Origin: Candidatus Cloacimonadota bacterium
Lineage (GTDB): Bacteria; Cloacimonadota; Cloacimonadia; Cloacimonadales; TCS61
Length of the DNA: 64,000 nt
Direction: 5' to 3'
Assembly: GCA_021736135.1 (NCBI GenBank)
Contig: JAIPGO010000009.1
Location: 1-64,000 of the forward strand
A model generated the notes under the pieces. It was not told the DNA's origin. It did not search any database and was given only the letters and a program-made list of their open reading frames with translations. Shown here one piece after another: positions 1,421 to 10,073 of this stretch. The position numbers were made by a program, and so were the translations under genes. The number at the start of each line of letters is the position of its first letter. Position 1 is the stretch's first letter.

Positions 1421-3412
1421 TCATAAAATTGCATTCTCAGTAAAGCATTTCAATAGATCCTGATATAATCCCGGCTGATTGATAAGATCAGCGTGTTTTC
1501 CGCTTTGCGTTATTTTCCCGTTTTGCATTATATGAAAAGTGTCAGCCAGGTTCATTAGTGCATTAATATTATGTGTAATTAAAAGCCCCTTTTTGTCCTT
1601 TAAACTACTTTTTAACACTGCCAGAAGTTCGCGTTCAGTGATGAGATCAAGACTGGTAAATGGTTCATCCAGTATTACAAATTCAGGCTCTTCTCTCAAC
1701 AAAAATCTTGCCAGCGCCAGCCTTTGTTTTTCACCGCCAGATATGGAAATTCCATCGCTTCCCAGATTTCTGCCCTGCAATTCTTCAATACCAGCCAGAT
1801 GGATAATATCGTTAAGTTTTTCTTTTTCGACGTAATTCTGCTCAAAACTTATCCTGCTTATCTCCTGGACAATGGAATCAATATTCCTGACCAAGGTCTT
1901 AACATATTCAAAATAATCATTTACCCTATCATCAGCAGGCCTGAATATTCCTATTAACTCCAGACAGGGCAGCATTTCCTTTTCCTTTTCCAGCCACTTA
2001 TGTATTTGCAAAAAATTCTCCGTTTCAATTCTATCACTAAGTTCCGCAAATATTCGTCTGAAATCTTGTTCATAATCTTTCATGATCTTATCTTTTTCTT
2101 TAAGTGGAATCACTTGTCTATTTAGCGTGAGATTAAACTCCAGATCATGATTAAATATCTCTATTACTTGCGGCAAAAGGTTGATCTTAAATAGGTAATA
2201 CCTCAGAGGAAAATGCTTAACATTTTCTCCATCAACACTGATCAATCCGTCTTTTAACTGTATCTCCTGACACATACTCTTAATTAGAGATGATTTCCCT
2301 TCACCTGATAATCCTACGAGTCCCGTTATGCCATCCTTAATTCCAAAAGAAAGTTTATCAAAAACAGGCTGGAAATCTTTATAAGAAAAATCTAAATTCG
2401 ATACCTTGATCTCCCCCCAGTGGCTTTCCGGAAGAAGTTTTGGTACATTTCCATTATCCTCAAGATAATTATTCTCAATATTGTCCAAGCGCTTAATACT
2501 TACGGTAGCAAACCTGAATCTTTGTATTGTATCAACAATATTATTCACAGGATTAATTATTATCATGTAGTATGACAACATAGCTAAAAGGGTTCCAAAA
2601 GTAATGTTCTTATTTAGCAGTAAGTCTATTGAAACAAGCAAAATTAGTACTAATCCCGTTCCACTTAACAATCCGAGTAATGCTGACGGAAGCGATTGTA
2701 AATTCAGAATTTTTAGCAATCCTTTCTGCATCTTTTCATAGCGTGCCCTCATACTATTTTCAAGCTTGTGACTTATAGACAGGTGACGGATAATCTGGGT
2801 ATTGGATAGTTGATCAATTAATTCATTATACATTTCTCCGGAAGCAGACCGGTTATCACTGTAGGCTTTGACCTGGCTTCTGGAAAAAAGTAAGCTAATT
2901 AGCAGGGCAAGTCCCATATATCCAATACAAATAAAACCATAGGTTGTTGACCATCTGATCACAATAAAGAAAACTAACACTGATTGTATGATACTAAAAA
3001 CCAGGTCAAAGAGCGCTAGATTAAATATTGAGCTGGTTAATCTGTTGATATCACCAAACATCATATCGGCATATTGACCGCTGCCCCAGTTTGATATCCT
3101 GCTTTTCTTCTGATTCACGATCAGTTTCAAATATTGAAAAAAGAAATGATTATCTATTTTCAACTTAAGTCTGCTATAGACCAAGTTACTCAAAATACTC
3201 ACTAAAGGAATGCCTATCTGGGTTCCCATAAACACAAATAGAAAAAAATAATTTATCCTGCTCTCTTCTATGACGGTATCTAATAAATACTTTTGATAAA
3301 GTGGTGATATCAATTGAAATATGTAAACAAAAGAATACAACAGTCCTAAGCACAAAAATATTACAAAATGTATGCTTTTCACACGCTTGATTATACTAAT
3401 CAAGTTCTTCAT
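1421..3412 (-). CDS. ABC exporter (permease fused to ATPase) of the Cys-rich peptide locus
   Basis: Half-transporter of 663 residues. Residues 1-300 form a six-helix exporter-type membrane domain and 330-663 the nucleotide-binding domain. Visible motifs: Walker A GLSGEGKSS (367-375), Q-loop Q415, signature SISGGEKQR (556-564), Walker B FVILDEP (578-584) and H-loop H614. There is no N-terminal C39 peptidase domain. About 100 charged residues (roughly 433-530) are inserted between the Q-loop and the signature, which ordinary ABC ATPases lack. AAGGAG lies just before the ATG. It sits 50 bases downstream of a 45-residue Cys-rich peptide, and both follow a SPASM maturase remnant on the same strand. 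Export of the modified peptide is therefore the likely role (inference); lipid or drug export is the alternative. Confidence 0.85.
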   Translation of the reverse strand: MKNLISIIKRVKSIHFVIFLCLGLLYSFVYIFQLISPLYQKYLLDTVIEESRINYFFLFVFMGTQIGIPLVSILSNLVYSRLKLKIDNHFFFQYLKLIVNQKKSRISNWGSGQYADMMFGDINRLTSSIFNLALFDLVFSIIQSVLVFFIVIRWSTTYGFICIGYMGLALLISLLFSRSQVKAYSDNRSASGEMYNELIDQLSNTQIIRHLSISHKLENSMRARYEKMQKGLLKILNLQSLPSALLGLLSGTGLVLILLVSIDLLLNKNITFGTLLAMLSYYMIIINPVNNIVDTIQRFRFATVSIKRLDNIENNYLEDNGNVPKLLPESHWGEIKVSNLDFSYKDFQPVFDKLSFGIKDGITGLVGLSGEGKSSLIKSMCQEIQLKDGLISVDGENVKHFPLRYYLFKINLLPQVIEIFNHDLEFNLTLNRQVIPLKEKDKIMKDYEQDFRRIFAELSDRIETENFLQIHKWLEKEKEMLPCLELIGIFRPADDRVNDYFEYVKTLVRNIDSIVQEISRISFEQNYVEKEKLNDIIHLAGIEELQGRNLGSDGISISGGEKQRLALARFLLREEPEFVILDEPFTSLDLITERELLAVLKSSLKDKKGLLITHNINALMNLADTFHIMQNGKITQSGKHADLINQPGLYQDLLKCFTENAIL

Positions 3413-3430
3413 AAATTCTCCTTAAAAAAT

Positions 3431-3452
3431 GGTGGAGAGTTGCCTCTCCACC
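3431..3452 (-). terminator. attenuator-like hairpin between peptide and exporter genes
   Basis: The 9-base arms GGTGGAGAG (3431-3439) and CTCTCCACC (3444-3452) pair perfectly around a 4-base loop. On the minus strand the stem is followed by ATTTTTTAAGGAG, a T-tract that runs into the exporter's ribosome binding site. This arrangement would give more transcript of the peptide than of the exporter, as is common behind precursor genes of peptide natural products. Confidence 0.75.
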
Positions 3453-3462
3453 TTACGCTTTT

Positions 3463-3600
3463 TTAACCACTTATAGGTGGACAACCGCACAAGAAAGTGC
3501 AAAGGGGCTCACATAGACCATAACAATGAATGTCACGGGCATCTCCAGTAATTAAAACACTTTTGCCCAGATGCTCAACTGCAGGTACTAATACTTTCAT
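3463..3600 (-). CDS. Cys-rich small peptide, candidate RiPP precursor, 45 aa
   Basis: A 46-codon frame (stop included) preceded by AAGGAGGAAAA and ATG, too short for ordinary ORF lists. The first 25 residues contain no cysteine and would be the leader (begins MKVLVPAVEHLGKS). The C-terminal part is CYGLCEPLCTFLCGC followed by PPISG: cysteines at 26, 30, 34, 38 and 40, spaced C-x3-C-x3-C-x3-C-x-C. It lies between a SPASM radical SAM maturase remnant and an ABC exporter on the same strand, with an attenuator hairpin directly behind it. That is the typical setting of a thioether-type RiPP (ranthipeptide/sactipeptide class), and the size and Cys density resemble SCIFF-type precursors, though I see no clear match to the SCIFF leader. 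The modification and activity are inferred, not seen. Confidence 0.75.
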   Translation of the reverse strand: MKVLVPAVEHLGKSVLITGDARDIHCYGLCEPLCTFLCGCPPISG

Positions 3601-3612
3601 TTTTCCTCCTTC

Positions 3613-3634
3613 AAGGTTATTTTTCCATAACCTT
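3613..3634. repeat. 8-bp hairpin upstream of the peptide gene
   Basis: AAGGTTAT (3613-3620) and ATAACCTT (3627-3634) are perfect arms around a 6-base loop, followed on the plus strand by a T-run. On the minus strand it lies between the maturase stop and the ribosome binding site of the small peptide. As a terminator it would only work on the plus strand, where no gene ends. It may instead shape the leader of the peptide mRNA. Confidence 0.5.
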
Positions 3635-3638
3635 TTTT

Positions 3639-4250
3639 TTAAGTCAATATTTGTAATACTGACCTGTTTTTTACATAACAGCTTCTCTTGTTTGTTTTAT
3701 GATAATCAACCGGACATCCTCCAAAACATATTGGGAGATATTTGCATTCCCTGCATTCAATATCTTTAAAAGGATTATTGGAGGCGTAATTAACTACTTT
3801 CGTGAAATCGAGTGTTATCTGTCCCTTCTCATTAATATATCCAATATTATCTAATTCAAATTCTCTATCTGATCCGCATTTCCAGACAGTTAAATCCGGG
3901 AATAAATGAAAGGTATTAAGCCCTCCATCTCCTTCACAGTAGTAGAAACTACCAGGTTTCTTATGTGTTTCCAAAGTATAAAATCCAATACTTCTTGCTT
4001 TGGCAATAAATTTATCTATCTCTAATAAATTTGAATTTGTCTTTTGAAATTTATCTGTATTAAATATTGGTCTGATTACTAATTCTATCACTTCCTTTTC
4101 TTTTTCAGTGAACTGATTAAGAAAAGTTGCAAGTTCAGAAAGCTCATTATTAAATATGTTTAACCTTATACTTACTTTTGTCTTATTTAATCCATCTAAG
4201 TCCATTGCGGAAAAGTCTTGACTATTCTGCAAAGTGCTGCAGTTTAGTCG
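3639..4250 (-). pseudogene. 5'-truncated radical SAM/SPASM peptide maturase
   Basis: The frame encodes only the C-terminal part of a radical SAM/SPASM enzyme. It has the late strands of the barrel (KVSIRLNIF) and then a SPASM domain with a CEGDGG segment, TVWKCGS, and the cluster C-x2-C-x5-C-x3-C in CRECKYLPICFGGCP, plus a final Cys near the end. SPASM cysteines ligate auxiliary [4Fe-4S] clusters. The N-terminal half with the radical SAM CxxxCxxC motif is absent: the frame runs into a stop at 4251-4253, exactly where the divergent ATPase begins. Possible starts are TTG at 4232 or ATG at 4205, neither with a good binding site. The gene is therefore probably inactive, cut by insertion or deletion. 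It lies just upstream of the Cys-rich peptide in transcription order. Confidence 0.8.
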
Positions 4251-4252
4251 CT

Positions 4253-5389
4253 ATGAAAAGAAATAAAGAAAAAATTATACTCAGCGATTTAGAAAAGAAG
4301 ATGGTATTTGTTACTGGCCCCAGACAGGTGGGCAAGACCTGGCTGGCAAAAAAAGTTGCTGAAAGCTTTTTGCATCCCGTTTATTTGAATTATGACAGGT
4401 TAGCTGACAGAAAAATTATCCGCAACGAATCCTGGTTATCTAATACCGATCTGATCATCTTTGACGAGATCCATAAGATGAAAGACTGGAAGAATTATCT
4501 CAAAGGAGTTTTTGATACTAGAGAAGAAAAATTGCGAATATTAATAACAGGCAGTGCCAGGCTCGAAACCTTTCACAAGGCTGGAGATTCACTGGCTGGA
4601 AGATATTTTCTGCATCATTTGCTGCCCTTTACACCGTTTGAAGTGGCAGGCAGAGCAGAAGATTTGAATCCGAACATCCTTTCAGAAGGAGGATTTCCGG
4701 AACCGTTACTGTCATATAGCGAGAGGTTTGTGAAAAGATGGCGGAATTTTTATATAAATGGTTTGCTCAGGGAAGACGTCGCTGATTTAACAAAACTGGC
4801 AAAAAACAAAGAACTTGAGCTTCTTCTGGAATTACTCAGGCAGCGGGTCTGTTCGCCCGTATCGTTCAGTTCATTGAGTACCGATCTTCAAATCTCTCCC
4901 AATACGGTAAAACGTTACATAGAAATTCTGGAAGCACTTTACATAGTTTTCAGGGTAACACCATTTTCCAATAATATAGCCAGATCAATTTTGAAGGAAC
5001 CCAAACTTTATTTTTATGATACGGGAATGGTGATTGGTGATGCTGGACAGAAACTCGAAAACGCCGTAGCTGTTTCTTTGATGGACTATACTTTTAGACA
5101 ATATGAAGAGATGGGAGAAATTTCCGGACTTCATTATATCCGCACAAAAGAGAAAAAGGAAATTGATTTTTGTCTCACGAAATCAGTGAATCCAATCCTC
5201 TTTCTGGAAGTGAAGAATAGTGATTATAACCTCAGCAAAACACTGTGTGATTTTTCTATCAAATACAAGGTAAAAGCAGTGCAACTTGTTGGTAATCTTA
5301 AACGAGAGCGAATCGAAAATGATATCGAGATCAGAGATGTGACAAGATTTCTGACGGAAGAATTAGCGACTGAGGGTGTAAGGGTGTGA
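4253..5389 (+). CDS. AAA ATPase with DUF4143/PD-(D/E)XK-like C-terminus
   Basis: A 378-residue member of the AAA_14/DUF4143 family. It shows Walker A GPRQVGKTW near residue 28, Walker B LIIFDEIHKMKDW, the ITGSARL sensor motif, then a winged-helix part (LQISPNTVKRYIEIL) and a C-terminal nuclease-like fold with the motif KEIDFCL...FLEVKNSD. The family is widespread, often duplicated and present in accessory regions; its function is poorly known. I start it at 4253 because longer frames only read antisense to the SPASM gene. No clear ribosome binding site is seen. Its first base touches the broken end of the maturase, so it probably arrived with the rearrangement that truncated that gene. Confidence 0.85.
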   Translation: MKRNKEKIILSDLEKKMVFVTGPRQVGKTWLAKKVAESFLHPVYLNYDRLADRKIIRNESWLSNTDLIIFDEIHKMKDWKNYLKGVFDTREEKLRILITGSARLETFHKAGDSLAGRYFLHHLLPFTPFEVAGRAEDLNPNILSEGGFPEPLLSYSERFVKRWRNFYINGLLREDVADLTKLAKNKELELLLELLRQRVCSPVSFSSLSTDLQISPNTVKRYIEILEALYIVFRVTPFSNNIARSILKEPKLYFYDTGMVIGDAGQKLENAVAVSLMDYTFRQYEEMGEISGLHYIRTKEKKEIDFCLTKSVNPILFLEVKNSDYNLSKTLCDFSIKYKVKAVQLVGNLKRERIENDIEIRDVTRFLTEELATEGVRV

Positions 5390-5854: not shown

Positions 5855-6757
5855 ATGAAGATATTGCCATACGGGGCGGCATTGCTGGCGATGTTTTTCT
5901 GGGCTGCCTCCTTTATTGTCATCAAGATCGCTTATTTATATATGGGTGCCTATACTTTAACGTTTTTACGCCTGGTGGCAGCGTCATTGCTTATGCCTAT
6001 CTTATATTATATCAGTCCTCAACGGGACCGGATCAAGCGGAAACATATACTTCATCTGCTGCTGCTCTCCTTTTTCGAGCCATTTCTTTATTTTATTGGA
6101 GAGAGTAAAGGGATGCTTTATGTTCCGGCATCTTACGGCGCTATAATCATATCTTTGATACCGCTTGTAACACCGATAGTTGCCTGGATTTTGATAAAGG
6201 AACCCATTACAAAGTGGGGAATTGCCGGCACGATCATTTCATTCAGCGGGGTAGCGTTGCTGGTTTCAGGAAATGCAGATGGAACCGTATCTTTGAAAGG
6301 CCTGGCCTTTTTATTTCTGGCAGTATTGGCAGCGGTAGGTTATGGCATAAGTTTGCGTCAGATTGCCCATGAATATAAGCCCGTGACGATAGTGATGGTG
6401 CAGACTTTCTTTGGCATGCTTTATTTTCTGCCGCTTTTCCTGATTTTTGAGAGCAGGCAGTTTTTTACTGCCATCCCCCCCTGGGAGGCATTTTTGCCAG
6501 TATTGGGACTGGCAATATTTTGTACTTGTGGGGCATTTCTGCTTTTCACATTTGCTATCCGCCAGATTGGGCTGAATAATGCAAATATACTTTCTAACAT
6601 GATCCCTGTTTTCACGACAGTACTGGCATTTTTCATACTTAAGGAAGCAGTGCCGGTGACGAAGGCGGTTGGTATTTTAATAGTAGTGGGCGGACTTTTT
6701 TTATCTCAATACCCGCTGCTGGTAAAAGCGAAAAAGCGCAGACATTTATTAAAATAA
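5855..6757 (+). CDS. EamA-family (DMT superfamily) transporter
   Basis: A 300-residue inner-membrane permease made of two repeated EamA units, ten hydrophobic segments in all, with the family-typical AMFFWAASFIVIKIA start and a second-half FTFAIRQIGLNNANILSNMIPV segment (abridged). EamA proteins export metabolites such as amino acids; the substrate here cannot be told. I chose the ATG at 5855 because AGGAG lies 7 bases upstream (5843-5847). The earlier GTG at 5804 and ATGs at 5813 and 5828 have weaker sites and would add a polar leader before the first membrane helix. It is followed 76 bases later by an exported protein gene, possibly co-transcribed. Confidence 0.88.
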   Translation: MKILPYGAALLAMFFWAASFIVIKIAYLYMGAYTLTFLRLVAASLLMPILYYISPQRDRIKRKHILHLLLLSFFEPFLYFIGESKGMLYVPASYGAIIISLIPLVTPIVAWILIKEPITKWGIAGTIISFSGVALLVSGNADGTVSLKGLAFLFLAVLAAVGYGISLRQIAHEYKPVTIVMVQTFFGMLYFLPLFLIFESRQFFTAIPPWEAFLPVLGLAIFCTCGAFLLFTFAIRQIGLNNANILSNMIPVFTTVLAFFILKEAVPVTKAVGILIVVGGLFLSQYPLLVKAKKRRHLLK

Positions 6758-6833
6758 CTGTCTAAGCTTTTGAGAAAGTGGACAGAAAAATGAGAGAAAA
6801 CATAATTTGTCCGAAAATATTCAGGAGGTAGAA

Positions 6834-7382
6834 ATGACGACAAGAGCAAGAATCGCAATTGTAGTAATATTAGTTTTTCTGGCAGGCAGTGCAGTTCTGC
6901 TGGCTGGACCGAAAGTTGTTACAAGCGGCAAGAAAAGTCCCCGAGTTATTCAAAAAGAAACACTGCCCAAAGGTTCCGTGGAAATTGAAGTAGGTGGAGA
7001 ACGTTACTATCAGAATCATGGGATCTTTTATAAAAAACACCCGCATGGTTATAAAGTGGTTAAAGCTCCCAAAGGTGCGCGGATCAGACGTATACCTGAC
7101 GGATTCCGGATGGTTCGCCGGCATGACAGAGTGTTTTATGTATTTTACCATACCTGGTATTATTATGATGAACCGAATGATGTATATATAGTAGTAGATG
7201 AACCGGAAGATGAATACAAAGACAACAGCAGCGATAAAATATACTTGGTAAACGGCTCAGTTCTGGTGGGAATGTTTCTGGGGGGAACCGACGAAATAGT
7301 CAAATTCCTCTTTGATGATGAAGTACGCAAAATTCCGGTGGAGGAAATAGTTTCTATAGAATTTGCAGCAGCGATGGAATAA
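6834..7382 (+). CDS. exported DUF6515-like protein
   Basis: A protein of 182 residues with a signal peptide (about residues 1-24). The middle is rich in Tyr, His and Pro-Gly (VGGERYYQNHGIFYKKH, IRRIPDGFR, FYHTWYYYD). This pattern resembles the DUF6515 family, exported proteins with repeated short YY(x)GxYY units. The last ~45 residues (KIYLVNGSVLVG ... RKIPVEEIVSIEF) look like a small beta domain. The start at 6834 follows AGGAGG at 6823-6828. A strong terminator stands behind it. Function unknown; probably periplasmic or envelope-associated. Confidence 0.7.
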   Translation: MTTRARIAIVVILVFLAGSAVLLAGPKVVTSGKKSPRVIQKETLPKGSVEIEVGGERYYQNHGIFYKKHPHGYKVVKAPKGARIRRIPDGFRMVRRHDRVFYVFYHTWYYYDEPNDVYIVVDEPEDEYKDNSSDKIYLVNGSVLVGMFLGGTDEIVKFLFDDEVRKIPVEEIVSIEFAAAME

Positions 7383-9273: not shown

Positions 9274-10073
9274 TGCCGGAATTGCCAGAAGTGGAAACCA
9301 TTGTGCGTGAATTGCGCGGAGAAATAACAGGAAAGGAACTTACAGAAATAATCAGTCTGCGGCCCGGAACAGTAAAGGGAGCATGCAAGAAGGAGTCGGG
9401 AACCCTGGGCAGGATAAACTCGGTGAGTCGAAGAGGTAAATATATCATTCTGGGAACAGATAGTGACCTGGCAATAGTTATCCATTTAAGAATGACGGGT
9501 AAATTACAGAAGCGGAAGGAGAACGAAGAGCGCCCAGCCCATTGTCGGGCGGAACTGCAATTCGGAGATGGGAGTGTATATTATTTTGATGATGTGCGAA
9601 CATTTGGAAAGATAGAAATATTAGAAAGCGGCAACCTGTCAGGAGCATTGAGTAAACTGGGAATAGAGCCATTTAGTGCTGAATTTAATGCGGAATATCT
9701 CAGTAACCGGATGCATAACAGGAAAGCACCGATAAAAAGTTTATTATTAGACCAGTCACTAATAGCCGGACTGGGTAATATTTACGTATGTGAAATTCTG
9801 CACCGCTGCGGAATTGCACCGCAAAGAGAGGGTAACAGTCTCAGAAGAGAAGAATTTGGCAAATTAGCTGCCGAGACAACTCAGGTATTAAGTGAAGCCA
9901 TTGAGAAAAACGGGACAACCATCTCAGATTATCGCAGAGTGGATAACAAGCGGGGAGAGTTTCAGAATTTTCTACGTGTTTATGGCAAGAAAGACTGCGT
10001 CTGCGGGAATAAAATTCTACGCATAAAGCAATCAGGCAGGACAAGTTACTACTGTCCGGTCTGCCAGCAATAA
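9273..10073 (+). CDS. mutM: formamidopyrimidine-DNA glycosylase
   Basis: 266 residues, normal length. The N-terminus MPELPEVE supplies the catalytic Pro2 and Glu3; HLRMTGKL follows, and DQSLIAGLGNIYV is the family's helix-two-turn-helix. It ends in a zinc finger, CVCGNK ... YYCPVCQ. The first cysteine pair is C-x-C instead of the usual C-x2-C, a small oddity. The enzyme removes 8-oxoguanine and other oxidised purines and nicks the strand. The start overlaps the perR stop, so the two are translated together. This places oxidative DNA repair under the peroxide regulator. Confidence 0.95.
   Translation: MPELPEVETIVRELRGEITGKELTEIISLRPGTVKGACKKESGTLGRINSVSRRGKYIILGTDSDLAIVIHLRMTGKLQKRKENEERPAHCRAELQFGDGSVYYFDDVRTFGKIEILESGNLSGALSKLGIEPFSAEFNAEYLSNRMHNRKAPIKSLLLDQSLIAGLGNIYVCEILHRCGIAPQREGNSLRREEFGKLAAETTQVLSEAIEKNGTTISDYRRVDNKRGEFQNFLRVYGKKDCVCGNKILRIKQSGRTSYYCPVCQQ

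Follow-up and report, generated by a model that had tools for sequence, protein, structure and literature searches.

The locus examined here lies near the start of a 64,000-nucleotide stretch of Candidatus Cloacimonadota DNA (hereafter the window) and raises the question of whether a 45-codon Cys-rich frame between a radical SAM-related gene and an ABC exporter gene encodes the precursor of a modified peptide, and what such a peptide would be for. Direct reading of the minus strand, which gives ...CCTTGAAGGAGGAAAAATG... across the start of the frame, bore out the frame proposed in the initial annotation at 3463..3600, together with its ribosome-binding site, AAGGAGG, at 3605..3611 on the same strand, with the ATG four bases on. 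The translation, MKVLVPAVEHLGKSVLITGDARDIHCYGLCEPLCTFLCGCPPISG, comprises a leader, MKVLVPAVEHLGKSVLITGDARDIH, and a core, CYGLCEPLCTFLCGC-PPISG. The first Cys is residue 26, leaving the first 25 residues free of Cys as had been described, and the spacings of 4, 4, 4, and 2 between the Cys residues correspond to the proposed C-x3-C-x3-C-x3-C-x-C core. The peptide gave no match in Pfam or NCBIfam at E ≤ 1, in agreement with the earlier remark that the leader belongs to no recognized precursor family. The description of the neighbors stood in part: an ABC exporter gene with a TMD and an NBD (Pfam ABC_membrane and ABC_tran) is located at 1421..3412 on the minus strand, but the upstream "SPASM radical SAM gene" proved to be the C-terminal SPASM part only.

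Among 125 genomes of the phylum, one significant homologue of the precursor was observed (genome G040, E 7e-8, 55% identity), flanked there by a complete radical SAM/SPASM gene of 427 residues and an exporter gene. A second homologue, in a near-identical cassette, was found on the IMG/VR contig 3300050335_000100. This phage precursor, of 50 residues, reads MVIMVNAVEHVGSASGTVMDTRASTGCYIGCYGLCTTLCSFLCGCPPPNT, is also preceded by AAAGGAGGTAAAA-ATG, keeps all five Cys residues of the window peptide, and adds a sixth in the four-residue register (spacings 4, 4, 4, 4, and 2). A check of the lower-scoring precursor matches (L004-L031) for Cys-rich frames led to their rejection, L003 alone excepted. 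The initial annotation had looked to homologues beside intact SPASM genes as the check on its proposal, and to their absence or to random changes at the Cys positions as grounds for abandoning it; such homologues exist in both G040 and the IMG/VR contig, and the five Cys residues are conserved. A codon comparison between the window and the phage cassette revealed saturated synonymous sites (pS about 0.80-0.86), with pN values of 0.30-0.36 for all three genes and of 0.14 in the 17-codon core, and on this codon evidence all three cassette genes are under purifying selection. Because saturated synonymous sites combined with a constrained core are unlike a non-coding frame, the precursor frame appears to code for a real peptide, as judged from two independent precursor lineages only, that of the window and that of the phage and G040. 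A short, Cys-rich peptide with a CxC end might instead bind metal or form disulfides and stand beside a maturase by chance, which we regard as highly improbable, since two lineages have inherited the maturase, peptide, and exporter genes together in the same order and the set moves as a unit. The locus thus shows what is generally expected of a RiPP system, namely a conserved short precursor that remains next to a modifying enzyme from one lineage to another. The original assignment to this class draws support from an intact syntenic homologue that has a CxxxCxxC motif, a SPASM domain, and an exporter.

The cassette is sporadically distributed, occurring in 2 of the 125 genomes. A scan of genome contigs beyond the phylum with two short patterns for the maturase pair yielded no orthologue, and an equivalent scan for the exporter pair, also with two short patterns, yielded generic ABC transporters only, none of them an orthologue after inspection of their neighbors. 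A viral scan with the maturase of genome G044 returned a single unrelated phage, and INPHARED phages contained radical SAM relatives at only 22-33% identity.

The intact enzyme of 427 residues, encoded at 6001-7284 of the phage locus L042, carries the sequence CNCSCNYC (C-NCS-C-NY-C in L042/L034), which contains the CxxxCxxC motif, matches Pfam Radical_SAM, and has aligned SPASM Cys residues. Its best PDB match by sequence is CteB (E 2e-15), a maturase that forms thioethers. A structural model of the enzyme, which is weak (mean pLDDT 53), gave CteB as the first fold match, followed by TigE, ChlB, SuiB, and SkfB; with low confidence, the strand-strand-strand-helix arrangement at the N-terminus of this model would fit an RRE. 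The best NCBIfam scores were 169 bits for TIGR04463, 151 bits for CefB (NF038107), and 138 bits for Clo7bot (TIGR04334), all below the equivalog cut-offs of 525, 600, and 600, respectively.

In the window, the maturase is represented by a fragment at 3639..4208 on the minus strand (homology 3642-4208), which aligns with residues ~238-427 of the intact enzyme at 50% identity and keeps all seven SPASM Cys residues. Its SPASM domain was recognized by TIGR04085 (1.2e-9, 38.4 bits, cut-off 27), and it contains no RRE-like domain, radical SAM barrel, or CxxxCxxC motif. The homology ends in a break zone at 4209..4250 on the minus strand, where the frame is still open with no convincing homology, and the zone abuts a gene for an AAA_14/DUF4143 ATPase (4251..5389, plus strand) outside the cassette. 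This gene was considered as an inserted element, which was not supported, as only partial DNA matches of 66-74% were found elsewhere. A search of the 4.1-Mb assembly did not reveal the N-terminal ~240 residues of the maturase; the other match in this genome is 30% identical and has its own SPASM region, ruling it out as the missing half. The fragment shows no extra decay, with a pN of 0.32 compared with 0.30 for the exporter. The open frame, together with divergence like that of the exporter, suggested that the break is recent or is an assembly fault. The latter would mean that the join at ~4209-4250 is artificial and that the organism carries an intact maturase, as might happen in a MAG-type assembly of 148 contigs and as the lack of extra decay would allow; we consider it rather unlikely, since the assembly is 98% complete and holds no N-terminal half, and since the adjoining gene begins cleanly at an ATG. 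With the RRE and the radical SAM barrel lost, the window copy should not modify the peptide. It is thus fairly probable that the frame in the window is a nonfunctional remnant and that the cassette is inactive in this genome, where the only other related enzyme is the partial match with its own SPASM region, even though the precursor and exporter are intact and have good ribosome sites. This concerns the window copy only and is compatible with the explanation of the locus as a mobile RiPP cassette.

The exporter of the window is 54% identical to the phage copy, and likewise to that of G040. Its TMD and the first half of its NBD match bacteriocin transporters of the PCAT1 type; no C39 peptidase was found with Pfam, and the N-terminal C39 domain that characterizes PCATs is accordingly missing. 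The NBD contains an insertion of ~100 residues before the signature motif (about residues 435-540), and the ABC_tran match spans 233 residues; the insertion is kept in the phage copy and gave no Pfam domain. Between the precursor and exporter genes, the minus strand at 3431..3452 can form a hairpin with a 9-bp stem and a GCAA tetraloop, followed by a U-run (MFE z-score -4.2). Both intact copies have a hairpin of different sequence in the same place (z -4.4 and -3.2), and we propose that it is probably an attenuator or processing hairpin favoring precursor transcripts. No immunity gene was evident in the cassette. Downstream of the exporter, a membrane-type ORF of 199 residues (513-1112) with weak similarity to DUF6232, which is absent from the phage cassette, may have an immunity role. 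The DNA at 1-1420 of the window is AT-rich (32.7% GC) and includes, near the contig start, a short tandem repeat of CTAACTA units (262-318).

The surroundings of the intact copies are those of a phage. On the IMG/VR contig, the cassette is flanked by a phage lysozyme gene on one side and a Mu-F-like head gene on the other, with portal and XkdF-type protease genes nearby, and the same contig encodes a Mu transposase C-terminal domain, a TniB-like ATPase, and an S24 repressor, which identify it as a Mu-like temperate phage. The intact copies can therefore be described as phage cargo (a moron), lying inside a phage module and absent from the same place in relatives. The window copy cannot: no phage gene adjoins it and its genome has no portal match. 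Its exporter lies 1.4 kb from the contig end. Of the 125 genomes examined in the phylum, 14 have relatives of the portal, one of them a single-contig genome carrying two copies; the window's own genome has none. Genome G011 gave nine portal matches (L146, L160, L167, L169-L174), suggesting many prophage copies. Between G040 and the IMG/VR phage, the cassette DNA is 98-99.7% identical, compared with 73-92% for the adjoining phage genes, and the cassette has a GC content of 34.5% against a background of 42% in the window, and of 34.6% against 48-50% in the phage. The higher identity inside than outside, together with the low GC content, argues that the cassette moves as one piece and is of outside origin. 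In L042, the cassette is separated from a shortened type IIG gene by a short ORF (9649-9873) that resembles, by eye, the start of an IS3-type transposase and could mark how the cassette was inserted.

A lysozyme search led to 33 IMG/VR contigs that also have a portal gene, and 31 lysozyme-adjoining stretches were inspected. The cargo in these stretches is interchangeable. When nine cargo proteins were analyzed with PADLOC, seven, from six further phages, matched defense models, namely BREX (BrxC, PglZ), Mza, and type I, II, or (weakly) III restriction; of the remaining two, one in the cassette-bearing phage gave a type IIG match, and one gave no match. Radical SAM peptide cassettes occupy three of the 31 stretches. 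One (L070, the same as L042) is of the window type. Another (L073, 6564-8380) has a PqqE/SkfB-like radical SAM/SPASM enzyme beside a 64-residue peptide with six Cys residues spaced by four, which scored weakly against TIGR04117 (17.5 bits, cut-off 50). The third (L097, 3183-7858) has genes for two CcpM-like radical SAM enzymes, one on each strand and each adjoining a similar ORF of 162-171 residues, and is possibly a duplicated peptide system in a phage. In genome G044, the same slot holds a fourth kind of cassette (L055, G044:C76, 5140-10523), consisting of an enzyme (TIGR04463, 229 bits), a 63-residue Cys-rich precursor, and an ABC exporter, together with a 732-residue protein with no Pfam match. 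A 387-residue ORF in this locus (3605-4768) recurs in L073. The start of the G044 precursor, MRIIVNPINHM, resembles the window leader, MKVLVPAVEHL, to a degree exceeded by only 3 of 2000 shuffles, a likeness of sequence that is suggestive only.

The company of PADLOC-recognized systems in related phages might mean that the RiPP itself is an anti-phage (superinfection) system, sharing its slot with BREX, Mza, and restriction for that reason; RiPP clusters do occur near defense systems, and a lanthipeptide family has anti-phage activity (PMC12715929). However, the slot from the Mu-F-like gene to the lysozyme gene (L070-L101 and L103 in IMG/VR) also holds very large predicted secreted proteins with no defense match, from which we regard it as a general accessory slot, and the exporter implies action outside the cell. 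A direct role in phage defense thus seems improbable, and the reading that we prefer is that of a mobile three-gene RiPP cassette, of which the window locus is a remnant and whose intact phage-borne copies likely yield a weapon of the lysogen (probability roughly 0.7).

Whereas the genes, homology, conservation, phage context, and break are shown by the analysis, we infer the type of modification, the export of the peptide, and its role as follows. The leader, MxxxVxAVEHxG, would be recognized by the N-terminal RRE-like region of the intact enzyme, whose radical SAM and SPASM clusters, by analogy with CteB, would join some of the Cys residues of the C-x3 repeat to neighboring residues as thioethers. 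The leader would be cut by a protease encoded outside the cassette, and the ABC exporter would carry the modified product out, while the hairpin after the precursor gene would keep precursor transcripts above exporter transcripts. The window copy, in a bacterial chromosome and deprived of the catalytic two thirds of its maturase, would make and perhaps export the peptide unmodified. Because the cassettes ride in a variable slot of Mu-like temperate phages, the product most likely benefits the lysogen, and a secreted weapon against competitors would be our first choice for its role. The same RiPP machinery could instead make a signal, passed between lysogen cells or reporting density, a role for which one might cite the reported part of SCIFF-type ranthipeptides in clostridial quorum sensing (PMC8326336) and the lack of a visible immunity gene in the cassette; the sporadic, mobile distribution of a cassette with no receptor fits a weapon better, and we consider signaling unlikely.

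A broader version of the weapon reading, put forward tentatively and with doubt, is that in Mu-like phages of this phylum one slot swaps anti-phage systems and unrelated radical SAM cassettes, that the peptides serve the lysogen in conflict between strains or between phages, and that the C-x3-repeat peptide would represent an undescribed thioether class. The arrangement suggests that peptide weapons or signals of this kind are cargo exchanged among viruses. In the limited literature searched, we found no report of several radical SAM peptide cassettes swapped with defense systems at one slot of Mu-like phages. Little work has been done on the radical SAM peptides of mostly uncultured Gram-negative bacteria, and what such peptides do is usually obscure; a cassette that passes between phages as one unit, in a slot also used for defense systems, offers an ecological clue to their purpose, and the intact copy provides a compact enzyme-precursor pair that is directly testable in E. 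coli.

We compared the cassette with known systems. In sactipeptides, the Cys thioethers are formed to alpha carbons, usually between N-terminal donor Cys residues and C-terminal acceptors, giving a hairpin. Such a hairpin fits poorly here, as nearly the entire core is taken up by the Cys residues, the last of which has just five residues after it. The SCIFF system (CteA-CteB) is similar in that a short Cys-rich precursor stands beside an enzyme with RRE-like, radical SAM, and SPASM regions, and CteB (5WGG/5WHY) is the best solved match of the intact enzyme by sequence and, in the weak model, by fold. It differs in that the intact enzyme scores 79 bits against the TIGR03974 cut-off of 425, the precursor has no SCIFF match, and the Cys residues here occur at every fourth residue within a stretch of 15-19 residues. 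SCIFF peptides are ranthipeptides, in which Cys forms a thioether to a non-alpha carbon, and their wide spread was argued to speak against an antimicrobial role (PMC8326336). The TIGR04463, CefB, and Clo7bot maturases of Cys-rich peptides are the top-scoring families over nearly the full length of the enzyme, with scores far below their cut-offs and with precursors that are not matched here. The targets of the CXXX-repeat system (TIGR04115 enzymes, TIGR04117 peptides) share the placement of Cys at every fourth residue, whereas the intact enzyme reaches 48 bits against the TIGR04115 cut-off of 350 and neither the window nor the phage precursor matches TIGR04117. Thus, by sequence, the precursor is unassigned to any family, yet its design of Cys at every fourth residue is already known in CXXX-repeat targets.

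As for the context, sublancin is encoded on SPbeta. Biosynthetic gene clusters on temperate phages have been described (Dragos et al. 2021, as cited in PMC9927498), and RiPP clusters are found near defense systems, with RiPPs possibly acting in phage interactions (PMC12715929); both are therefore known kinds of arrangement. The cassettes resemble phage-borne clusters in that peptide biosynthesis is placed on a phage with a presumed benefit to the lysogen, and would differ from them in the Mu-like phages, the Gram-negative phylum rich in uncultured members, the radical SAM chemistry (assigned by analogy), and a fixed slot common with defense systems. They resemble the defense hotspots of phages and prophages in their conserved flanks and interchangeable restriction and BREX-type cargo, and differ from these in that the slot is also home to several unrelated kinds of RiPP cassette.
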